A DNA stretch of 64,000 bases, from contig JAACZV010000016.1 in assembly GCA_009996515.1 (NCBI GenBank), positions 62,001-126,000 on the forward strand, in the 5' to 3' direction. A program made the translations under genes and the position numbers. Shown here piece by piece: positions 27,713 through 62,765 of the stretch. This DNA is from Comamonadaceae bacterium. Its GTDB lineage: Bacteria > Pseudomonadota > Gammaproteobacteria > Burkholderiales > Burkholderiaceae_C. Within the stretch, counting starts at the first letter, position 1. Every line of letters begins with the position of its first letter. The notes below the pieces were generated by a model. It did not search any database, was not told where the DNA came from, and worked only from the letters and a program-made list of their open reading frames with translations.

Positions 27713-28510
27713 CTAGCCGCCAACCCGGCCAGCCCCCCGCGCGCCGCCGATCTCGCCCCTGCGCTGGCCCAACCCCGGCCTTTCCAGATCCCTGAACGCC
27801 TCGAACACCCAGGACCTCAGCCCGATGACGACGCTGTAGGGCCGCTTCTCGGCGGACGGCAGCTTCTGGTCCAGCAGGTGCTGGCGCGCGAAGTCGTCGG
27901 CGGCGCGCTGCAGCCGCTCGGCCAGCTCGCGCGCATGGCCGGCGCCGAACTCGCCGTGCACCAGCGTCAGCAGCTCGCCCTCGCCGTCGAAGCCGCCGGC
28001 GAAGAAATCGGCCATCACGCGCTCGCGGAAGAACTGCATCACCGGGCCCTGCGGCCGCCAGCGCAGCGTCTTGGCCACCTTGAGCTTGTAGCGGTTGTGT
28101 GGCCGCAGCTCGATGACGCCCAGCCGGTCCAGCTGCACCAGCGCCGCGACGGCATCGGCCTCGGCCAGCCGGTAGCGCGCCAGCACGTCCTCCAGCGCCC
28201 AGTGGCTGAGGCAGCAGATGGCCACCAGCAGCAGCACCGGCGAGGCGACGACGGCGCGCTCCTGCTCCAGGCTGAGCTCGCGCAGCTCCGGCGTCTGCTG
28301 CGCCAGCCGTGCCGCCAGCTCGGCGAACTCCAGCTTCAGCACGCGGCAGATCTCGTCCACGCGCGACAGCGGCATCTCGCCGCCCGGCGCCAGCATGCGC
28401 TTGATGCTGGACTCGGACAGGTCCAGCGCCTGCGCCAGCTCGGCATAGCTCAGGCCCTGGCTCTTCAGCTCGGCCTTGATCAAGGCCACGAGGGATTGCG
28501 TGCTCGACAT
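27713..28510 (-). CDS. XRE-family transcriptional regulator
   Basis: A 265-residue protein with an N-terminal Cro/C1-type helix-turn-helix (residues 5-65: LSYAELAQALDLSESSIKRM). The remaining 200 residues contain two segments that look like a winged-helix or ligand domain (ALVQLDRLGVIELRPHNRYKLKV; VMQFFRERVMADFF), typical of a group of Proteobacterial XRE regulators of unknown ligand. The C-terminal 15 residues are Gly/Arg-rich and unstructured. TACCGT (28524 to 28519) lies eight bases before the ATG, another probable leaderless start. Confidence 0.83.
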   Translation of the reverse strand: MSSTQSLVALIKAELKSQGLSYAELAQALDLSESSIKRMLAPGGEMPLSRVDEICRVLKLEFAELAARLAQQTPELRELSLEQERAVVASPVLLLVAICCLSHWALEDVLARYRLAEADAVAALVQLDRLGVIELRPHNRYKLKVAKTLRWRPQGPVMQFFRERVMADFFAGGFDGEGELLTLVHGEFGAGHARELAERLQRAADDFARQHLLDQKLPSAEKRPYSVVIGLRSWVFEAFRDLERPGLGQRRGEIGGARGAGRVGG

Positions 28511-28637
28511 GGGCGCGAACGGTAGCGCATGACGCGCCCGGCGGGTGCAGCCGCCGCGCCGCCGCGACAAAAGCCGCGGCGCCGGCGCGGGTCACCACGA
28601 AGCTCGCGGCCCTCGCCACCTCCGCCACGTCCAAGAC

Positions 28638-29861
28638 ATGCTCACCCGACGCCATCTGCTGTGCTGCGGCGCAGCCGCCGGCCTGTTCACCTCGCTGGCC
28701 GCCCCGGCCCGAGCCGGCCTGCTCAACCCCTGCCGCAGCGGCATCCCCGACGACCTGAGGCCGCTGCTGGCACGCAGCTTCGACGGCCTGGACCCGACCC
28801 AGCTCTGGGATGTCCACACCCACCTGCTCGGCAGCGGCGACTCGGGTTCGGGCTGCACGGTCAACGCCCAGCTGAGCCAGTGGCAGCACCCGGTCGAGAT
28901 GCTGCGCAAGCGCCTCATCCTGAACGCCGCCTGCGTGCCGGCCGACGCCCCCAGCGTGGACCGCGCCTATGTGCAGCGGCTGCAGGCGCTGGCCGCCGAC
29001 TTCCCCGCCGGCGCGCGCTGGATGCTGTTCGCGTTTGATGAGGCCTGCGACGACGCCGGGCGGCCCGTCGCGGCCCACACCACCTTCCACGTGCCCGACG
29101 CCTACGCGGCCCGCGTCGCCGCCGAGACGCCGCAGCGCTTCGCCTGGGTCGCGTCCATCCATCCCTACCGGCCCGATGCGCTGGCGCGGCTGGACGCGGC
29201 GCTCGCGAACGGCGCCGTCGCGCTGAAATGGCTGCCGTCCAGCATGGCCATCGACCTGCGCGACCGGCGGCTGCGGCCCTTCTACGACCGCCTGGCCTCG
29301 GCACGCCTGCCCGTCATCGTGCACTGCGGCGAGGAGCGCGCCGTGCCCGGCGCCGGCCGCGACGCGCTGGGCAACCCGCTGCTGGTGCGCGCGGCGCTGG
29401 AGCGCGGCGTGCGCGTCGTCATCGCGCATTGCGCATCGCTGGGTATGGCGCTGGACCTGGACCGTGCACGGCCGCGCGAGGTGCCGGCCTTCTCGCTGTT
29501 CGCGCGGCTGATGGACGAAGGCTGGGGCCAGCACCTGCTGGGCGACATCTCCGTCGTGCTGCAGACCAACCGCGAGCCCGAGGTCGCGCGCACGCTGCTG
29601 ACGCGCGAGGACTGGCAGCCGCGCCTGCTGCACGGCTCCGACTACCCGCTGCCCGGCATCCCGGCCGCCGTGCATCTGCCCGCGCTGGTCCGCGCCGGCC
29701 TGCTGGACGCCACCGACGCGCCCGCGCTGGCGCGGCTGCGGGAGCACAACCCGCTGCTGTTCGACCTGGCGCTGAAGCGCCTGGCGCGCTGGCGCGGCGC
29801 GCGCCTGCCGGCGGCGGTGTTCGCGACCCGCCCGCATTTCCAGCGCGGGGCGGGCGCATGA
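28638..29861 (+). CDS. Tat-exported amidohydrolase-superfamily protein
   Basis: A 407-residue exported hydrolase. The N-terminus is a Tat-type signal (TRRHLLCCG, hydrophobic core, cleavage after ARA near residue 27). The mature part is a TIM-barrel amidohydrolase: DVHTHLLG (about 56-63, HxH metal pair), a Lys in ALKWLP (about 197), VIVHCGE (about 222-228), VIAHCASLG (about 262-270) and GSDYPLPG (about 335-342, final Asp). It resembles the amidohydrolase-2 group. Substrate unknown. It ends 107 bases before the lipid-related operon and may or may not belong to it. Confidence 0.85.
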   Translation: MLTRRHLLCCGAAAGLFTSLAAPARAGLLNPCRSGIPDDLRPLLARSFDGLDPTQLWDVHTHLLGSGDSGSGCTVNAQLSQWQHPVEMLRKRLILNAACVPADAPSVDRAYVQRLQALAADFPAGARWMLFAFDEACDDAGRPVAAHTTFHVPDAYAARVAAETPQRFAWVASIHPYRPDALARLDAALANGAVALKWLPSSMAIDLRDRRLRPFYDRLASARLPVIVHCGEERAVPGAGRDALGNPLLVRAALERGVRVVIAHCASLGMALDLDRARPREVPAFSLFARLMDEGWGQHLLGDISVVLQTNREPEVARTLLTREDWQPRLLHGSDYPLPGIPAAVHLPALVRAGLLDATDAPALARLREHNPLLFDLALKRLARWRGARLPAAVFATRPHFQRGAGA

Positions 29862-29968: not shown

Positions 29969-30436
29969 ATGGCATCCACCCCGAACATCCGCCGCGACAC
30001 CAGCGCCTGGCGCCTCCAGGTCTGGGTCTCGTTCGGCCTCAGCGTCATGCTGTGCGGCTCGGGCCTGGCCTGGCTGCCGGGCGCCGACCTGGACCGTGCC
30101 TTCATGGTCATGGGCTATGTGTTCTGCCTGTCGACCGCGTTTGCGCTGGCCAAGTTCATCCGCGACAACCAGGACCGTCCGGTCGACACGCCGATGTGGC
30201 GCGTCGTCGTCTGGGCCGGCTTCGCCCTCGCGATGGGCCTGACGGCCTGGGGCCTGTGGCGCATGGACGTGCAGCCGGTGTGGAAGGCCTATCTGCTGGT
30301 CTGCTGGCTCTACCTGATCTCCAACGTCTTCACGCTGGCCAAGATGCTGCGCGACGCCCACGAGGCCGACCTGCTCGAAGCCCGGCTGCAGGGCCGCCGC
30401 GAGGCCGCGCTGCAGGTCGGCCCCGAAGCCCTGTAA
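29969..30436 (+). CDS. YiaA/YiaB-type inner-membrane protein
   Basis: A 155-residue membrane protein with four helices in two similar hairpins (about 14-32, 42-60, 73-92 and 98-118). The repeats AFMVMGYVFCLSTAFALAKFIRD and YLLVCWLYLISNVFTLAKMLRD are the doubled YiaA/B domain: both hairpins end in a helix with ALAK/TLAK followed by a basic-acidic turn. Function of the family is unknown. ATG follows GGGAACTCAG. It is 15 bases before the next gene and is the likely first gene of the operon running to 36262. Confidence 0.83.
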   Translation: MASTPNIRRDTSAWRLQVWVSFGLSVMLCGSGLAWLPGADLDRAFMVMGYVFCLSTAFALAKFIRDNQDRPVDTPMWRVVVWAGFALAMGLTAWGLWRMDVQPVWKAYLLVCWLYLISNVFTLAKMLRDAHEADLLEARLQGRREAALQVGPEAL

Positions 30437-30451
30437 CCCCTGGAGCTCCCC

Positions 30452-30892
30452 ATGAAACGCCTGCTCGCCCTCACCGCACTGGCCCTGGCCATCAGCCAAG
30501 GTGCCCAGGCCCACAACGGCCCGTCCGAAGCCAGCGCGGCGCTGTCGCTGGCGCCCGTGGTGCTGTCGGTCGGCGCGGTCAGCGCCACCGGCGCCGCGCT
30601 CATCGCCATCCCCGCGGGCCTGCTGTCGGCCGGCGTCACGCTGGCGGTCGTCAGCGTCGAGGTCGTCGGCGGCGCCACGGTCTGGGTGCTGGAGCGCGCC
30701 TCCGACGGCGCGCGCATCAGCCTCAAGACTGCCGGCAAGCTGGCGGTGGGCTCCGTCGTGTCCGCCGGTGCGGCCGTCACGGTGTCGGTCATCGGCGCGG
30801 GCACGCTGCTGTCCGTCGCCGGCGAGGTCATCGCCTTCATCCCCAACGAGATCGGCAAGGCCCTGCTCTACAACGAACAGGTGAGCCGTTGA
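30452..30892 (+). CDS. Exported Ala/Val/Gly-rich protein of unknown function
   Basis: A 146-residue protein with a clear signal peptide (MKRLLALTALALAISQGAQA, cleavage after residue 20). The mature part has three long Ala/Val/Gly/Ser-rich hydrophobic stretches (about 28-60, 60-75 and 88-125) with few charges and no cysteines, so it is probably membrane-inserted or surface-associated. I recognise no family. It is fixed in the operon: its TGA overlaps the TTG start of the DUF2145 gene (TTGA). Confidence 0.72.
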   Translation: MKRLLALTALALAISQGAQAHNGPSEASAALSLAPVVLSVGAVSATGAALIAIPAGLLSAGVTLAVVSVEVVGGATVWVLERASDGARISLKTAGKLAVGSVVSAGAAVTVSVIGAGTLLSVAGEVIAFIPNEIGKALLYNEQVSR

Positions 30893-31671
30893 AGCGGATC
30901 GTCGCCATCGCGGCCCTGGCCGTGGCCACGGCAGCCCAGGCGGGCCGGCCCTGCGAAGACAGGCCGCCGACGGCGCGCCAGATCGAGCAGGGCCTGAACC
31001 TCGCGCAGGCCACCGCCCGCCAGCTCGATGCCAGCGGCGCGCAGGTCGCCATCCTGGCCCGCGCGGGGCAGGACCTGAGCAAGTACGGGCTGCGCTGGTC
31101 CCACCTCGGCTTCGTCTACCGGGACGCGAGCCAGCAGCCCGCCGTCTGGCGCGTCATGCACAAGCTCAACCACTGCGGCAGCGACCACGCGGCGCTGTAC
31201 CGCCAGGGCCTGGGCGAGTTCTTCCTCGACAACCCGCACCGCTACGACGCCGCCTTCGTCGTGCTCAAGCCCGAGCTGCAGCAGGCGCTGCTGCCCGTGC
31301 TGGCGGACAACGGCCGCGTCGCACGCTTCAACGAGCGCCGCTACAGCATGGTGGCCTATGCCTTCGGCACCCAATACCAGCAGAGCAACCAATGGGTGCT
31401 GGAGACGCTGGCCGGTGCCGCGGCGCCCGCCGTCGGCAGCCGCCGCGACGCCCAGGACTGGCTGCAGCGCCAGGGTTACCGGCCCACCGACCTGCGCCTG
31501 TCGACCATGACCCGCCTCGGCGGCCGCCTGACCCAGGCCAACATCGCCTTCGACGATCATCCGGGCGCGCGCCGCTTCGCCGGCCACATCGACACGGTCA
31601 CCGTGGACTCGATGCTCGACTGGCTGCCGCGCGCCAACCTCTCGGAACCCGTTCAACTGGTCAAGCCATGA
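30889..31671 (+). CDS. DUF2145 family exported protein
   Basis: A 260-residue periplasmic protein of the DUF2145 family. TTG at 30889 is the start: it overlaps the previous stop (TTGA) and gives a proper signal peptide (KRIVAIAALAVATAAQA). The mature domain contains paired Cys (PCEDRPP and KLNHCGSDHAALYRQGLGEFF), a conserved HLGF and FLDNPHRYDAAFVVL, and a NERRYSMVAYAFGTQYQQSNQW segment that resembles the catalytic layout of NlpC/P60-like papain folds (Cys/His). A hydrolase or amidase acting on a cell-envelope substrate is therefore possible but not shown. Its stop overlaps the next start as ATGA. Confidence 0.82.
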   Translation: MKRIVAIAALAVATAAQAGRPCEDRPPTARQIEQGLNLAQATARQLDASGAQVAILARAGQDLSKYGLRWSHLGFVYRDASQQPAVWRVMHKLNHCGSDHAALYRQGLGEFFLDNPHRYDAAFVVLKPELQQALLPVLADNGRVARFNERRYSMVAYAFGTQYQQSNQWVLETLAGAAAPAVGSRRDAQDWLQRQGYRPTDLRLSTMTRLGGRLTQANIAFDDHPGARRFAGHIDTVTVDSMLDWLPRANLSEPVQLVKP

Positions 31672-33569
31672 GCCACGACTCGCACCCGAATCAGTTCGCC
31701 CTGCTGGGCCAGCGCCGATTCGCGCCCTTCTTCTGGACCCAGTTCCTCGGCGCCGCGAACGACAACGTCTTCAAGTTCGCGTTCACGCTGATGATCACCT
31801 ACCAGCTGCAGCTGGACTGGCTGCCGCCCAGCCATGCGGGCCTGGTCATCGGTGCGCTCTTCATCCTGCCCTATGTGCTGTTCTCGGCCACCAGCGGCCA
31901 GCTCGCCGACAAGCACGACAAGGCGCGGCTGATGCAGCTGGTGAAGAGCCTGGAGATCGCCATCATGGCCATCGCGGCCTGGGGCTTCTACACGGCCCAT
32001 GTGCCGACGCTGCTGGCCTGCGTGTTCCTGATGGGCCTGCACTCCACGCTGTTCGGCCCGGTCAAGTACGCCTACCTGCCGCAGCAGCTCAACGAGCGCG
32101 AGCTGACCGGCGGCAACGGCATGGTGGAGATGGGCACTTTCGTCGCCATCCTGCTGGGCCAGCTGCTGGGCGGCCTGCTCGTCGACGCGCCGCTCGTCGG
32201 CCCGCAGCATGTGGCCTGGGCCTGCCTGGGCCTGGCCGTGCTGGGCCGTGCGACGGCGCAGGGCATTCCGGCCAGCCCGTCCACCGACCCCCATCTCGTC
32301 ATCAACTGGAACCCCTTCACCGAGACCTGGCGCAACCTCAGGCTGGCGCGCGAGGGGCTGGCCGTGTTCCGCTCGCTGCTGGGCATCTCGTGGATGTGGT
32401 TCTTCGGCGCGGTGTTCCTCAGCAACTTCCCGGCCTTCGCCAAGGAAGTGCTACACGGCGGCCCGCAGGTGGCCTCGCTGCTGCTGGCGGTGTTCTCCAT
32501 CGGCATCGGCATCGGCTCGCTGCTGTGCGAGCTGCTGTCCAAGCGTCACGTCGAGATCGGCCTGGTGCCGCTGGGCGCTTTGGGCATGAGCGTGTTCGCC
32601 ATCGACCTCTACTTCGCCGCGAGCGGCCTGCCCCCCGCCCAGCCCTACGGCGTGGCCGCCTTCCTCGGCGTGGCGGCGCACTGGCGCGTGCTGGCCGACC
32701 TGGGCCTGCTGGCCCTGTTCGCCGGCCTCTACAGCGTGCCCATGTATGCGCTGATCCAGCTGCGGGCGCAGCCCACGCACCGCGCCCGCATCATCGCGGC
32801 CAACAACATCCTGAACGCGCTGTTCATGATCGCCAGCTCCCTCATCGCCGGCGCCATGCTGAGCGCGGGCCTGACGATCCCGCAGGTCTTCCTCGCGCTG
32901 GGCATCGCCAATGCGGTGGTGGCGGCCTACATCTTCCTCATCGTGCCGGAGTATTTGCTGCGCTTCATCGCCTTCGTGCTGACGCGCCTGGTCTACCGTT
33001 TCCGCATCGTCCACGACCAGCGCATCCCCACCAGCGGCCCGGCCGTGCTGGTGTGCAACCACGTCAGCTTCGTCGACGCCGTGCTGCTGATGGCGGCCAG
33101 CCCGCGCCCCATCCGCTTCCTGATGGACCACCAGATCTTCCGCATCCCGGTGCTGGGCTGGATGTTCCGCCTCGCCAAGGCCATTCCCATCGCGCCGCAG
33201 AAGACCGACCCGGCCACCTACGAGGCCGCCTTCGCCGCCGCCCGCGCGGTGCTGCAGGACGGCGAGATGGTCTGCATCTTCCCCGAGGGCGGCATCACGC
33301 GCGACGGCACGCTGCAGCCCTTCAAGGGCGGCGTCATGAAGCTCATCGAGGGCCAGCCGGACCTGCCGGTGATTCCGATGGCGCTGGGCAATCTGTGGGG
33401 CAGCTTCTTCTCGCGCGTGGAGGGCGGCCAGGCCATGGTCAAGCCGCTGCGGCGCGGGTTCTGGAGCCGGGTGTCGCTGACGGTGGACCAGCCGGTGGCG
33501 CCCGGCGACGTCACGCCCGAGGGCTTGCGCGAGCGCGTGGCGGGCTTGCTCGCCGCCCGGGTCGCATGA
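31668..33569 (+). CDS. MFS transporter fused to 1-acylglycerol-phosphate acyltransferase domain (LplT-Aas-like)
   Basis: A 633-residue inner-membrane fusion. Residues 12-425 are an MFS transporter of the lysophospholipid transporter (LplT) type, about 12 helices, with SGQLADKHDKARL near 82 as the MFS loop. Residues 445-630 are a PlsC-type acyltransferase: NHVSFVDA (HX4D catalytic, about 462-469), FPEGGITRDGTL (about 538-549) and VIPMALGN. In E. coli, LplT flips lysophospholipids inward and Aas re-acylates them. The acyl-ACP synthetase half of Aas is absent here, so acyl donors must be made elsewhere. ATGA overlaps on both sides. Confidence 0.9.
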   Translation: MSHDSHPNQFALLGQRRFAPFFWTQFLGAANDNVFKFAFTLMITYQLQLDWLPPSHAGLVIGALFILPYVLFSATSGQLADKHDKARLMQLVKSLEIAIMAIAAWGFYTAHVPTLLACVFLMGLHSTLFGPVKYAYLPQQLNERELTGGNGMVEMGTFVAILLGQLLGGLLVDAPLVGPQHVAWACLGLAVLGRATAQGIPASPSTDPHLVINWNPFTETWRNLRLAREGLAVFRSLLGISWMWFFGAVFLSNFPAFAKEVLHGGPQVASLLLAVFSIGIGIGSLLCELLSKRHVEIGLVPLGALGMSVFAIDLYFAASGLPPAQPYGVAAFLGVAAHWRVLADLGLLALFAGLYSVPMYALIQLRAQPTHRARIIAANNILNALFMIASSLIAGAMLSAGLTIPQVFLALGIANAVVAAYIFLIVPEYLLRFIAFVLTRLVYRFRIVHDQRIPTSGPAVLVCNHVSFVDAVLLMAASPRPIRFLMDHQIFRIPVLGWMFRLAKAIPIAPQKTDPATYEAAFAAARAVLQDGEMVCIFPEGGITRDGTLQPFKGGVMKLIEGQPDLPVIPMALGNLWGSFFSRVEGGQAMVKPLRRGFWSRVSLTVDQPVAPGDVTPEGLRERVAGLLAARVA

Positions 33570-33823
33570 AGGCGCTGGCCCGCGGGCTGCTGGTCGTCGT
33601 GCTGGCGCTGGGCGTGCTGGGCTTTGGCGCGGTGGGCCTGTGCGGCGGCTACGTCACCGTATGGATGGCGCACGCCCTGTTCGCACCGGGCGGGGCCGGC
33701 GCTCTGGCGATACTGGCGCTGTCCGTCCCCTGCCTGATCGGCGGCCTGGCCCTGGTCTGGCTATGCGGTGGCAAGCTGCGCGCGCTGCTGCGCGGACCCC
33801 AAGCGGAGAACGACCCATCATGA
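33566..33823 (+). CDS. Small two-helix membrane protein, paralogue A
   Basis: An 85-residue protein with helices at about 7-35 and 45-68 and a basic C-terminal tail. LGFGAVGLCGGY in helix 1 and a VWLCGGKLRALLR ending are shared with the next gene (LGFGLAGLCG and AWLCGRRLVRLLR), so the two are tandem duplicates. No known family. ATGA overlaps with both neighbours make it an integral operon member. Two conserved cysteines, one per helix end, could bind something or form a pair. Confidence 0.75.
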   Translation: MKALARGLLVVVLALGVLGFGAVGLCGGYVTVWMAHALFAPGGAGALAILALSVPCLIGGLALVWLCGGKLRALLRGPQAENDPS

Positions 33824-34083
33824 GCATGAACCGCGCCACCGGGTTGGGCCGCTTCATCATCGTCGGCCTGCTCATGCTGGCCACGCTGGGCTTTGGCCTG
33901 GCCGGTCTGTGCGGCGCGGCGTTCACGCTGATGTCGCTGCCCGACCTCGCCAAGCCCGGCAGCTATGCCGGCGCGGCGCTGGTCGTTGCCATCCCCAGCC
34001 TGCTGATCGGCGGGGGGATCGCGTGGCTGTGCGGGCGCCGGCTGGTCCGGCTGCTGCGCCACGACGACAGCGCGGCACCTTGA
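33820..34083 (+). CDS. Small two-helix membrane protein, paralogue B
   Basis: An 87-residue protein with the same layout as the preceding gene: helices at about 12-36 and 45-70, one conserved Cys in each (GLCG and WLCG), and a basic C-terminus. A tandem duplication that has diverged to roughly one third identity. Its ATG overlaps the previous stop (ATGA) and its TGA overlaps the TTG start of the Lgt-family gene. Function unknown; small partners of the membrane enzymes encoded around them is the simplest reading. Confidence 0.75.
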   Translation: MSMNRATGLGRFIIVGLLMLATLGFGLAGLCGAAFTLMSLPDLAKPGSYAGAALVVAIPSLLIGGGIAWLCGRRLVRLLRHDDSAAP

Positions 34084-34808
34084 TCGCCGACACCGCCACC
34101 GCCGCCTGGGTGCACAGCGCCTTCGCCTGGGCCGGCATGGCGCTGGGCGCCGCGATGTGGCGCGCCACGCTGAAGCACCAGCAGCGCGGCGGCGCGCTGG
34201 CGCCGGGCAACTTCGGCGTGCTCGTCGGCCTGCTGATGGGCGCGGCGCTGGGCAACAAGCTCGTGTTCCTCATCGAACGCCCTGACGTCGTGCAGGCCAT
34301 GTGGCGCGGCGGCGCGCTGACGCTTCCGGGCCAGAGCATCGTCGGCGGACTGCTGGGAGGCCTCATCGGCGTGGAGATCGCCAAGAAGCTCACCGGCCAG
34401 ACCCGCAGCACCGGCGACGCCATGGTGTGGCCCATCGCGGTGGGCCTGGCCATCGGCCGCGTGGGCTGCTTCCTGGCCGGCCTGCATGACGACACCTATG
34501 GCCTGCCCACCCGCGCCCCCTGGGGCGTGGACTTCGGCGACGGCATCCCGCGCCACCCGACGCAGCTCTACGAGATCGCCGTCGTGCTGCCGCTGGGCCT
34601 GGCGCTGCACCGCGCCCGCTTCGCCACGCCGGGCCTGGCCTTCAAGCTGTTCCTGAGCGGCTATCTGCTGTGGCGCTTCTTCATCGAGTTCCTCAAGCCC
34701 GTGCCGGTCGCCTGGCCGCTGGGGCTGTCCGGCATCCAGTGGACCTGCGTCGTTGCACTCGCCGTCTACCTGCCTCTCACGCTGCGGGCCGCCCGCAGGA
34801 CGCCATGA
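34080..34808 (+). CDS. Divergent prolipoprotein diacylglyceryl transferase (Lgt) family protein
   Basis: A 242-residue membrane protein with about seven helices and the Lgt family layout. TTG 34080 is the start (TTGA overlap). The family signature is present but altered: GRVGCFLAGLHDDTYG (G126-R127) keeps the arginine equivalent to E. coli R143, but the following Asn (N146) is C130. The HGGL motif is VGGL, with V88 in place of H103. RHPTQLYE is intact. It may move a lipid group other than diacylglyceryl from phosphatidylglycerol, or use another acceptor. It is coupled by ATGA to the radical SAM gene. It is unlikely to be the housekeeping Lgt. Confidence 0.85.
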   Translation: MIADTATAAWVHSAFAWAGMALGAAMWRATLKHQQRGGALAPGNFGVLVGLLMGAALGNKLVFLIERPDVVQAMWRGGALTLPGQSIVGGLLGGLIGVEIAKKLTGQTRSTGDAMVWPIAVGLAIGRVGCFLAGLHDDTYGLPTRAPWGVDFGDGIPRHPTQLYEIAVVLPLGLALHRARFATPGLAFKLFLSGYLLWRFFIEFLKPVPVAWPLGLSGIQWTCVVALAVYLPLTLRAARRTP

Positions 34809-36262
34809 ACCGCAAGACTCGACCCTATCTGTTCTACGACACGACGCAGTCGGTCTGCACCAGCTGCCTGCGGCCGTGCGAGGCCAAGATCGTCATCAAG
34901 GACGACCGGGTCTACATGGACAAATGGTGCCCCGCCCATGGCACCGAGCGCGTGCTCGTCAGCGACGACGCGGCGTACTACCGGCAATGCCGCGAGGTCT
35001 TCGTGAAGCCGCCCGAGATGCCGCAGCGCTTCGCGACGCCCATGCAGTACGGCTGCCCCTATGACTGCGGCCTGTGCCCCGACCACATGCAGCACAGCTG
35101 CCTGTCCATCGTCGAGGTCAGCGACCACTGCAACCTGCGCTGCCCCACCTGCTACGCGGCCTCGGGCCCGGAGCGGCTGACCCACCGCTCGCTGGACGAG
35201 GTGGTCGCGATGCTGGACGCCATCGTCGCCAGCGAGGGCGAGGCCGACGTGGTGCAGATCTCCGGCGGCGAGCCCACGCTGCATCCGCAGTTCTTCGACA
35301 TCCTGGACGCGGCCAAGGCCCGGCCCATCAAGCACCTGATGGTCAACACGAATGGCCTGCGCATCGCCCAGGATGCGGCCTTCGCCGAGCGGCTGGCCGG
35401 TTATGCGCCGGGGCTGGAGGTCTATCTGCAGTTCGACTCGCTGAAGCGCGAGGCGCTGCTGGACCTGCGCGGCGCCGACCTGCGCCGGCCGCACGAGGAG
35501 GCGCTGGCGCGGCTGGAGGCTTTAAGCCTGTCGACCACGCTGGTGATGACGGTCAAGCGCGGCGTCAACGACGACGAGATCGGCGACGTGATCCGCCACG
35601 GCCAGGGCTACGCCTGCGTGCGCGGCGTGACGCTGCAGCCCATCCAGAACGCCGGCCGCGTCGAGGCCTACGACGCGGCCAGGCATCGCCTGACGGTGAG
35701 CGAACTGCGCCGCCGCATCGCCGCGCAGAGCGGCGTGTTCACGGCCGCCGACGTGCTGCCCGTGCCCTGCAACCCGGACACGCTGGCCATGGCCTATGCC
35801 ATCCGCGGCGAGGACGGGCTGGTGCCGCTGACCCGCTACCTGGACGCCGGGACGCTGCTCGCCGGCGAGCGCAGCACCATCGTCTTCGAGGGCGATCCGG
35901 CGCTGAAGGCCGCCGTCTTCAAGCTGTTCTCCACCAACCACTCGCCCGAGAGCGGCGCCAACTGCCTGTCCGAGTTGCTGTGCTGCCTGCCGAAGATAGC
36001 CGCGCCGCAGCTCAGCTATCGCGACGTGTTTCGTGTGCTCATCGTGCAGTTCATGGACGCGCAGTCGCTGGACATCCGCGCGCTGAAGAAGAGCTGCATC
36101 CACATCGCGCGGCCGGACGGCCGGCTCGTCCCCTTCGAGGCCTACAACCTGTTCTACCGCGACGAGCGCCAGACCCAGCTGGCGCAGATCCGCGCCGAGA
36201 TCGACGCCCAGCGCGAACAGCGCCTGCGCCTCATGACTAAGGTGTCTGCCGCCCGCGCCTGA
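34805..36262 (+). CDS. Radical SAM protein, COG1964 / tetraether lipid synthase-like
   Basis: A 485-residue iron-sulfur enzyme. The N-terminal zinc/iron knuckle has C18-x2-C21-x3-C25 and C42-P-x-H-G. It is followed by an auxiliary cysteine set C84, C88, C91 and C99 (GCPYDCGLCPDH), then the radical SAM motif C109-x3-C113-x2-C116 (CNLRCPTC) and SGGEPTLHP (about 155-163). A C-terminal NCLSELLCC segment adds more cysteines. This order is that of COG1964 proteins, whose archaeal member Tes (MJ0619) joins lipid alkyl chains carbon-to-carbon. Beside Lgt-like and acyltransferase genes, a lipid chain is the likely substrate; this is inference. Confidence 0.85.
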   Translation: MNRKTRPYLFYDTTQSVCTSCLRPCEAKIVIKDDRVYMDKWCPAHGTERVLVSDDAAYYRQCREVFVKPPEMPQRFATPMQYGCPYDCGLCPDHMQHSCLSIVEVSDHCNLRCPTCYAASGPERLTHRSLDEVVAMLDAIVASEGEADVVQISGGEPTLHPQFFDILDAAKARPIKHLMVNTNGLRIAQDAAFAERLAGYAPGLEVYLQFDSLKREALLDLRGADLRRPHEEALARLEALSLSTTLVMTVKRGVNDDEIGDVIRHGQGYACVRGVTLQPIQNAGRVEAYDAARHRLTVSELRRRIAAQSGVFTAADVLPVPCNPDTLAMAYAIRGEDGLVPLTRYLDAGTLLAGERSTIVFEGDPALKAAVFKLFSTNHSPESGANCLSELLCCLPKIAAPQLSYRDVFRVLIVQFMDAQSLDIRALKKSCIHIARPDGRLVPFEAYNLFYRDERQTQLAQIRAEIDAQREQRLRLMTKVSAARA

Positions 36263-36737
36263 ACAGCCGCTTCACGCGCAGCTTGATGGCCCGCGCCGTG
36301 CGCCACACGCCGCTGGCGCGCACCCAGGCCAGCAGCTCGGCCTTCCAGGCCGCCCAGCGCGCATAGAGGCGGGCGAACCAGCCCAGCTGCATCAACGCCG
36401 GCTGGATGAGCTGGAACAGCCAGGCCAGCAGCGCCGTGCCGCCCAGCTTGGCCGCGACGATGACGCCCAGGCCGAACACCACATGGCCGCGGGCGACGAA
36501 CCAGACGGCCGCCAGCTTGACCGGCAGGATCAGCAGGCTGGGCAGCACCAGCACGACGAAGGCCCAGCGCGGCGGCAGGCGCTTCAGCGCCGCCTCGACC
36601 TGCCGGATGAGCGGCAGCCTCGCGATCAGCGCGAACACGCGCCGCAGCGGCTCCCAGCCCCATTCCTCGAAGAGGATGAGCAGCGCGAAGACGACGCGGA
36701 ACAGCCAGCGCAGCGGGGCGAGCACGGCTTTCAGCAC
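36237..36737 (-). CDS. Conserved membrane protein of unknown function
   Basis: A 166-residue protein with hydrophobic helices at about 8-25 and 56-90 and 95-112, an Arg/Trp-rich N-terminus and a strongly basic C-terminus (RVKRLFRRGRQTP). No motif is recognised. It converges on the radical SAM gene and the two overlap by 26 bases at their 3' ends. Composition matches the neighbourhood. It is separated from tgt, on the same strand, by the repeat element at 36799. Confidence 0.75.
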   Translation of the reverse strand: MLKAVLAPLRWLFRVVFALLILFEEWGWEPLRRVFALIARLPLIRQVEAALKRLPPRWAFVVLVLPSLLILPVKLAAVWFVARGHVVFGLGVIVAAKLGGTALLAWLFQLIQPALMQLGWFARLYARWAAWKAELLAWVRASGVWRTARAIKLRVKRLFRRGRQTP

Positions 36738-61667: not shown

Positions 61668-62765
61668 ATGAGCAAGCACCTCCTCCTCCCCCTCGCCGTC
61701 GCCCTCGCCGCAGCGCCCGTCGCGCAAGCCGCCCCCGAGCTGGAAACCGTCGTCGAAGGCCTGAAGACCCCCTGGGCCCTGGCCTTCCTGCCCGATGGCC
61801 AGTTGCTGATCACCGAGCGCGACGGCGCGCTGCGCACCGCCAAGCCGGGTGGCAAACCCGGCGCGCCCATCCAGGGCCTGCCGGCCATCGACGCCGTCGG
61901 CCAGGGCGGCCTGCTGGACGTGCAGCTGGACAGCGAGTTCGCCCGCAACCGCACGATCTACTTCTGCTACGCCGAGCCCGGCGCCGACAAGACCAACGGC
62001 ACGGCGCTGGCCCGCGCACGGCTCAGCGAGGACCTGAAGCGCCTCACCGACGTCAAGGTCATCTTCAGCCAGAGCCCCAAGATGGAAAGCCGGCTGCACT
62101 TCGGCTGCCGCATCGCCGAGGCGCCGGACGGCAAGCTGTTCCTGAGCCTGGGCGAGCGCTACAAGGGCATGCAGAGCGCGCAGACGCTGGACAACCACCT
62201 GGGCAAGATCGTGCGCGTGAACAAGGACGGCAGCGTGCCGGCCGACAACCCCTTTGTGAAGACGCCCGGCGCCCTGCCCGAGATCTGGAGCTACGGCCAC
62301 CGCAACTCGCAGGGCCTGATCGTCGACGCGCAGGGCCGGCTCTGGGAGCACGAGCACGGCCCCCAGGGCGGCGACGAGCTCAACCTCATCAGCCCGAAGC
62401 TGAACTACGGCTGGCCCGTCATCACCTACGGCGAGAACTACGGCGGCGGCAAGATCGGCGATGGCATCGCGGCCAAGGCCGGCATGGAGCAGCCGGTCGT
62501 CAAATGGGTGCCGTCCATCGCGCCCGCCGGCCTGGTGCGGCTGAAGAGCGCCAAGTACGGCGCGGCCTGGCAGAACAGCTTCTTCATCGGCTCGCTGAAG
62601 TTCGGCCACCTGGAGCGCGTGAAGCTCGATGCCGACAACCGCCCGGCCGAGCAGGAGAAGCTCTTCCCCGACACCGGCCGCATGCGCGATGTGCGCGAGG
62701 GCCCCGACGGGCTGCTGTACCTGGTGCTGGAAAGCGCGGGCAAGGTGGTGCGCGTGAAGCCCTGA
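61668..62765 (+). CDS. PQQ-dependent sugar dehydrogenase (soluble GDH/YliI family)
   Basis: A 365-residue periplasmic protein with a signal peptide (LLPLAVALAAAPVAQA, cleavage near 21). The mature part is a six-bladed propeller of the glucose/sorbosone dehydrogenase family: TPWALAFLPDG, GGLLDVQLD, LHFGCRIAEAPDG, YGHRNSQGLIVD, WEHEHGPQGGDELNL (PQQ/calcium region) and LNYGWPVITYG. E. coli YliI oxidises aldose sugars with PQQ. Substrate here unknown; no PQQ synthesis genes are in the window. ATG 61668 begins a normal signal peptide. Confidence 0.9.
   Translation: MSKHLLLPLAVALAAAPVAQAAPELETVVEGLKTPWALAFLPDGQLLITERDGALRTAKPGGKPGAPIQGLPAIDAVGQGGLLDVQLDSEFARNRTIYFCYAEPGADKTNGTALARARLSEDLKRLTDVKVIFSQSPKMESRLHFGCRIAEAPDGKLFLSLGERYKGMQSAQTLDNHLGKIVRVNKDGSVPADNPFVKTPGALPEIWSYGHRNSQGLIVDAQGRLWEHEHGPQGGDELNLISPKLNYGWPVITYGENYGGGKIGDGIAAKAGMEQPVVKWVPSIAPAGLVRLKSAKYGAAWQNSFFIGSLKFGHLERVKLDADNRPAEQEKLFPDTGRMRDVREGPDGLLYLVLESAGKVVRVKP

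Follow-up and report, generated by a model that had tools for sequence, protein, structure and literature searches.

A Tes-like radical SAM gene inherited together with an Lgt-like gene, mostly beside small Gly-x-Cys membrane proteins, in a Comamonadaceae bacterium and in other bacterial phyla

Background

Two described enzymes come closest to the genes reported here. One is Tes (GDGT-MAS; MJ0619; PDB 7TOL, 7TOM), an archaeal radical S-adenosylmethionine (SAM) enzyme whose substrates are free lipids (PMC9433317). Tes homologues also occur in bacteria for which no biphytanyl chains are known, and what they catalyse there is left open in that source (PMC9433317). The other is Lgt (E. coli Lgt: PDB 5AZB, 5AZC), for which residues Y26, H103 and N146 are reported as essential in E. 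coli; a Cys at the N146 position is found in distant Lgt proteins such as that of Leptospira, where it may form a structural disulfide (PMC13251419). Here we describe a gene cassette of a Comamonadaceae bacterium (assembly GCA_009996515.1, 4.58 Mb, 99.85% complete), in which a Tes-like radical SAM gene follows a divergent Lgt-like gene. The cassette lies in a stretch of 64,000 nucleotides (positions 62,001 to 126,000 of contig JAACZV010000016.1; hereafter the window, to whose positions the coordinates of the locus refer) and forms the end of a run of eight genes, g1-g8, which the initial annotation had regarded as one operon for a pathway joining lysolipid acylation, lipid transfer and radical chemistry.

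Results

A four-gene cassette beside a resident operon

The natural unit at this locus consists of the last four genes, g5-g8 (33566-36262), which encode two small membrane proteins (g5, g6), the Lgt-like enzyme (g7) and the radical SAM enzyme (g8). They form a self-contained cassette, and the eight genes are not one pathway. Among 60 related genomes (the host's own included; 20 of its genus), 16 have a strong radical SAM match (E < 1e-200) and 15 an Lgt-like match (E 1e-40); in the sixteenth genome (G001, locus L017) the Lgt-like gene is severed by the contig end. Neither gene was found in the other 44 genomes at the same thresholds. The LplT-Aas fusion encoded by g4, by contrast, is present in 49 of the 60 relatives and in all 20 genomes of the genus, six of which lack the Lgt-like/radical SAM pair, and DUF2145 (g3) occurs at 77-83% identity in four of these six. 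Loci L214 and L215 (4.9 kb each), from pair-less genomes, possess g2-g4 and lack g5-g8.

Regions retrieved from four of the six pair-less genus genomes display the site itself. In L222 and L225, LplT-Aas directly abuts the convergent right-border gene, so the site is empty and g5-g8 are missing as one block; in L223 and L224 the four genes are likewise absent and a different sequence follows LplT-Aas. Where the cassette is missing, g2 stays beside DUF2145 and LplT-Aas. An eight-gene pathway as a unit is therefore rejected, because g1-g4, or parts of them, persist without the pair. The same genomes identify LplT-Aas as a neighbour and not a component of the cassette: a component would be expected solely with the pair, and all six pair-less genus genomes have it.

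Co-inheritance of the Lgt-like and radical SAM genes

The Lgt-like gene and the Tes-like radical SAM gene constitute an inseparable, co-inherited pair that recurs in several bacterial phyla. A scan of 84,980 species genomes yielded 131 radical SAM relatives, of which the best 80 were taken as loci, with the nearest named relatives in records of Pelomonas and Roseateles. An Lgt-like gene is present at 76 of the 80 loci, in three of these (Archangium type) on the opposite strand, and its 4-base overlap with the radical SAM gene is exact in 33 of the 76, an association beyond what chance would give. As for the four remaining loci, two (L062, L107) have less than 1 kb of upstream sequence, and for the other two (L091, L114) the Lgt-like gene lies elsewhere in the genome, on a different contig from the radical SAM gene. 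In 299 evenly drawn Pseudomonadota genomes the radical SAM gene was found in nine, belonging to eight genera; the Lgt-like profile scored between 226.8 and 372.3 bits in these nine and no higher than 102.5 bits in the others (seven of the nine positive genomes contributed rows to this profile, which leaves the 290 misses unaffected). The joining of these two genes in the initial annotation is thus supported.

The pair is likewise kept at greater distance. At the seven loci of the Pseudomonadota sample that represent deep relatives, with radical SAM identities of 47-53%, the Lgt-like gene lies within about 200 bases in every case. Of 193 genomes from Myxococcota, to which the Archangium record belongs, 23 match COG1964 at E 1e-30, eight of them closely (>790 bits); all six examined of the eight have the Lgt-like gene near the radical SAM gene, and no Lgt-like gene was seen near the distant COG1964 members (29-34% identity) of four further Myxococcota loci. 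Plasmid records extend the pair to Persicobacter (Bacteroidota) and to Mycobacterium branderi and Nonomuraea (Actinomycetota); the Lgt-like protein of M. branderi matches the Lgt-like profile with 99.9% probability, and those of Persicobacter and Nonomuraea were identified by motifs. The COG1964 relatives on M. vanbaalenii and Haloarcula plasmids have no Lgt in their annotated neighbourhood. Among the first five plasmid matches, H4 was left out.

Some COG1964 genes keep other company. At L205 and L208 (Myxococcota) two or three distant COG1964 genes are clustered, with no Lgt-like gene, and on the plasmids of M. vanbaalenii (L227, 5971-8339) and Haloarcula (L229, 3974-6084) the COG1964 gene is immediately followed by a methyltransferase-domain gene, a different partnership. 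The titles of the records L061 (Desulfovibrionaceae) and L048 (Methylotenera) seem to conflict with their radical SAM identities to the window, 72% and 84% respectively, and the contigs are possibly misnamed or mis-binned.

Small Gly-x-Cys membrane proteins

Small cysteine proteins are the third component of the cassette, usual but not universal, and were overlooked in the initial annotation, which had, however, correctly recognized g5 and g6 as paralogous membrane proteins (40-42% identity, tblastn). Elsewhere in its own genome g6 matches, besides g5, only one weak place (E 0.06). A rule devised after the proteins had been seen (60-100 amino acids, two hydrophobic peaks, early G.{0,2}C) finds one or more such proteins in 59 of the 68 loci in which the Lgt-like gene is uncut and on the strand of the radical SAM gene, and at five loci without one (L048, L049, L050, L055, L116; nine in all) a Cys protein is recognizable by eye just beyond the rule or the region. 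Open reading frames (ORFs) that fit the rule number 79 in 314 kb on the coding strand of the core, two on its opposite strand and 13 in 2093 kb on the flank strands, i.e., they are about 40-fold denser in the core than in the flanks. Five of the seven deep-relative loci have them as well.

Gly precedes the Cys at position -2 in 60 of the 68 distinct Cys windows and follows it at +1 in 43. The termini are richer in Lys and Arg than the loop in 77 of 78 proteins and equally rich in the remaining one, which places the Cys outside, at the outer end of the first helix, a helix that runs from inside to outside. No Pfam family matches the small proteins over its cut-off, and their assignment to a known family is rejected.

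Partner proteins with a similar Cys and a different layout accompany the pair in other phyla. Persicobacter has a 59-amino-acid protein with a C-terminal GTGICGSLLS, the gene of which overlaps the radical SAM gene; in M. branderi the Lgt-like and radical SAM genes are separated by the genes of two membrane proteins, paralogues that end near GGLCTG and VGVCTG, and the Nonomuraea partner ends near AGICTG. Manual reading by the positive-inside rule would place these cysteines outside. At L177 and L178 the two genes of the pair are not linked, and the gene directly upstream of the Lgt-like gene, not of the radical SAM gene, codes for an exported GAC-box protein; a homologue takes the same position at L117, where the pair is linked; no Pfam family was found in the two of these three proteins that were scanned.

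The radical SAM enzyme

As the initial annotation had proposed, the COG1964 enzyme g8 is Tes-like, and the likeness extends over its full length. The profile match to Tes is full-length (E 2.3e-70), and the predicted fold resembles Tes with template modelling (TM) scores of 0.77 (7tom) and 0.75 (7tol) in Foldseek, while the other 48 rows among the matches listed have TM scores of at most 0.39. The model has a mean predicted local distance difference test (pLDDT) value of 79.8, with a weak stretch at 352-399. A rubredoxin-type CX2CX20CX2H motif, an N-terminal CX3CX2C with a His and the radical SAM CX3CX2C are present in all 42 aligned rows, and all three are motifs given for Tes (PMC9433317). 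Four further cysteines are invariant in the 42 rows (C322, C393, C394, C431), of which C393 and C394 fall within the low-confidence stretch. The four metallocofactor sites of Tes would thus have counterparts in g8, with the C-terminal cluster suggested by the four invariant cysteines only.

The likeness has limits. With 257.8 bits g8 falls below the NCBIfam cut-off for Tes (450), and its best NCBIfam score, 307 bits to TrsS (NF045646), is likewise below the cut-off of that family (490); in PMC13188914 TrsS figures only as an entry among selenoproteins. Unlike archaeal Tes, the enzymes of the g8 family covered here are bacterial and are encoded beside an Lgt-like gene.

The Lgt-like enzyme

Pfam places g7 in the LGT family (PF01790, 95.6 bits; cut-off 24.9), but g7 remains below every NCBIfam lgt cut-off (best 45.4 of 334; TIGR00544 39.3 of 118.9). 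Its AlphaFold2 model (pLDDT 92.0) predicts seven long helices and a short one, and a sequence profile matches the Lgt structure 5azb (E 2.1e-10). Four residues of E. coli Lgt are kept in all 40 rows of the family, namely R143 (R127 in g7), G154 (G141), Y235 (Y195) and R239 (R199). In contrast, Y26 is replaced by His in 38 of 40 rows (H12 in g7), H103 is no His in any of the 40 and Val in 33 (V88), and N146 is Cys in all 40 (C130). E99 and K102 are new invariant residues. By its description, the second mycobacterial Lgt homologue MSMEG_5408 has Y26H and N146C as in the g7 family (PMC13251419), so these substitutions are wider than this cassette.

An interpretation of g7 as an ordinary Lgt duplicate is rejected because a canonical lgt is separately encoded in the genome (266.2 bits, versus 95.0 bits for g7), because the residues differ and because the tree separates the two. 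In a midpoint-rooted FastTree phylogeny 38 of the 40 Lgt-like rows group together (0.972), separate from a clade of 23 canonical Lgt (0.999), and the remaining two rows, of Archangium type, lie outside the group of 38. The canonical set comprises 23 of 26 candidate loci, selected by a pattern that included R143 and N146, which leaves the canonical Tyr at Y26 and the His at H103 as the only independent observations.

Discussion

The reading that we favour, tentatively and at somewhat less than even chances, is that the cysteine of the small proteins is lipidated by the Lgt-like enzyme and that the hydrocarbon of the lipid is radical-modified by the SAM enzyme. If it works like Lgt, the Lgt-like enzyme would have an outward-facing active site and would transfer a glycerolipid-derived group to the Cys at the outer end of the helix in the small protein. 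This acceptor is lipobox-like and would mostly escape cleavage by ordinary lipoprotein processing. From the cytoplasmic side, the radical SAM enzyme would abstract hydrogen at an unactivated carbon of the same lipid, by analogy with Tes, and the product would be a lipid anchor that is modified and perhaps coupled. LplT-Aas, as resident lysolipid recycling, may help from outside the cassette.

The strongest argument comes from the partner proteins: across phyla, and with no evident similarity in other respects, they have their Cys in one place, namely where a lipobox Cys would meet Lgt. The reading is favoured also because the pair is co-inherited, crosses phyla and is absent as a block, because g8 combines the predicted fold of Tes with its cofactor motifs and because R143 and R239 are kept in the Lgt-like family. 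The position of the exported GAC-box protein at the Lgt-like gene where the pair is unlinked argues in the same direction.

Several observations weigh against it. The lipobox consensus has G, A or S preceding the Cys; here position -1 is G or A in 11 of the 68 distinct windows and S in none, which makes the box non-canonical. The rule for the Cys proteins was written post hoc, and no Cys protein was found by rule or eye at L060, L061, L111 and L117, nor by rule at L130, at L132, at the three loci of Archangium type or at the six Myxococcota loci (at two of the latter, L201 and L202, a different 108-amino-acid protein with AICGG follows the radical SAM gene by eye). The structural model of g7 found no Foldseek match at E <=0.001 and no Lgt among the 50 matches listed of 212, and its family has replaced Y26, H103 and N146, all three of which are reported as essential for the E. 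coli enzyme (PMC13251419). In the g8 family, two Tes residues are replaced according to the g8-Tes profile alignment: Met439 corresponds to V414, with Val in 40 of 42 rows, and Tyr459 to position 434, with Phe, Met or Ile in all 42. Both are invariant in 1,000 archaeal Tes homologues; the M439A variant of Tes is still active (PMC9433317), so that the replacement of Met439 does not exclude coupling chemistry.

A pathway restricted to lipids, one of two main rival explanations, is in our view somewhat unlikely. The pair would build an unusual membrane lipid, e.g., one with coupled tails, in which the Lgt-like enzyme moves glyceryl or acyl groups between lipids, and the small proteins would be subunits or scaffolds with a structural Cys. 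Tes itself works on free lipids (PMC9433317), the family lacks H103, which in Lgt has been connected with the acceptor peptide, the pair occurs at the six Myxococcota loci with no such small proteins, and lipid genes recur near it (LplT-Aas at 35 of 80 loci, an Aas-like gene at 15, FA_hydroxylase at L072 and L203). The commonest of these lipid neighbours, LplT-Aas, occurs, however, irrespective of the pair within the genus, and a lipid-only role leaves one Cys motif, kept at one side of the membrane in partner proteins across phyla, to be explained.

The other main rival, improbable in our view, is that the small proteins are substrates of the radical SAM enzyme, as in peptide maturation, and that the Lgt-like enzyme anchors or presents the product. 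One or two small, variable and sometimes tandem proteins do adjoin the radical SAM gene; yet the predicted fold of g8 scores a TM of 0.77 to Tes in Foldseek and 0.33-0.37 to the peptide-modifying SkfB and SuiB, and in the two genomes with an unlinked pair the Cys-bearing partner is found at the Lgt-like gene. An acyltransferase role of g7, in which a Cys130 thioester takes a phospholipid acyl group, passes it on and leaves the lysolipid for LplT-Aas, is very improbable, given that the Cys, although invariant in 40 of 40 rows, recurs in Leptospira Lgt as a possible structural disulfide and in MSMEG_5408 (PMC13251419), and that LplT-Aas, although linked at 35 of 80 loci, is independent of the cassette.

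If the lipidation of the small proteins is carried to its full consequence, the cassette would represent a second protein-lipidation system apart from Lgt-Lsp-Lnt, in which an uncleaved Cys at the membrane edge of dedicated small proteins is lipidated and a Tes-like enzyme remodels the hydrocarbon, e.g., by coupling unactivated carbons, to give a new anchor. We regard this wider claim as unlikely at present. If the favoured reading holds, bacteria of culturable genera (Roseateles, Massilia, Collimonas, Dechloromonas) would have a dedicated second lipidation route via radical chemistry. The cassette may make a lipid or a lipid-anchored protein so far undescribed. Its component families are known, and a search of open-access papers found no description of the cassette or of the combination; its results included a paper on engineered archaeal lipids and the Lgt study cited above (PMC13251419). 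The conserved pair and the likeness to Tes thus survive from the initial interpretation, and the eight-gene pathway does not. For one bacterial Tes-like branch there is now an Lgt-like partner that is inherited with it and, in most cases, a set of small Cys proteins, and with these partners the substrate question for bacterial Tes homologues becomes directly testable on a Cys protein and a lipid.

Locus layout and neighbouring genes

The eight ORFs all lie on the forward strand within 29969-36262 (Table 1), with positions verified. A gap of 15 nt separates g1 from g2, and the six following junctions are 4-base overlaps (TTGA 30889-30892, ATGA 31668-31671, ATGA 33566-33569, ATGA 33820-33823, TTGA 34080-34083, ATGA 34805-34808), as had been read initially. 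Pfam agrees with the gene identities first proposed (YiaAB, DUF2145, MFS with Acyltransferase, LGT, and Radical_SAM, the last together with Zn_ribbon_HMPTM). The same scan returned no family for g2 and g5 and two, both below cut-off, for g6.

Table 1. Features of the locus (positions in the window) and GAC-box proteins of other loci (positions in the respective locus)
Feature	Position	Strand	Basis or remark
Helix-turn-helix-like protein, divergent, left of resident operon	27713..28570	-	named from sequence alone; homologues at 14/80 loci
Amidohydrolase-family exported protein, upstream of g1	28638..29861	+	PF04909, 42.8 bits; start codon chosen by analyst
g1, YiaAB-domain membrane protein, resident neighbour	29969..30436	+	Pfam, 103.1 bits
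g2, small exported hydrophobic protein, resident neighbour	30452..30892	+	no Pfam family
g3, DUF2145 exported protein, TTG start, resident neighbour	30889..31671	+	Pfam
g4, LplT-Aas fusion, resident neighbour, not cassette-specific	31668..33569	+	Pfam, NCBIfam, genus presence
g5, 85-aa two-helix membrane protein, motif GFGAVGLCGG, Cys26 (codon 33641-33643)	33566..33823	+	
g6, 87-aa paralogue of g5, motif GFGLAGLCGA, Cys31 (codon 33910-33912)	33820..34083	+	
g7, divergent Lgt-like enzyme, TTG start, 242 aa	34080..34808	+	PF01790
g8, Tes-like radical SAM enzyme, 485 aa	34805..36262	+	Pfam, NCBIfam, profile and fold match
Convergent membrane protein, right border of cassette	36237..36737	-	abutted by LplT-Aas in L222, L225
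GAC-box exported protein, Methylococcaceae record	L117 8595-9224		
GAC-box exported protein, Methylococcaceae record	L177 3084-3737		
GAC-box exported protein, Methylococcaceae record	L178 1290-1922		

The make-up of g4 resembles that of LplT-Aas in lysophospholipid recycling, an LplT transporter fused to an acyltransferase domain. The Aas-like genes counted above have at least 61% identity, and the FA_hydroxylase-domain proteins adjoin the Lgt-like gene in Myxococcota (L072, 9208-9990, reverse strand; L203, 6798-7388, forward strand).

The resident operon may start upstream of g1 with the amidohydrolase gene, its probable first gene. Homologues of this gene occur at 15 of the 80 loci, all 15 of which also have LplT-Aas; this second conserved association is with LplT-Aas rather than with the radical SAM gene and spans records from Roseateles to Rhodocyclales. 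The N-terminus of the amidohydrolase-family protein is apparently twin-arginine-like.

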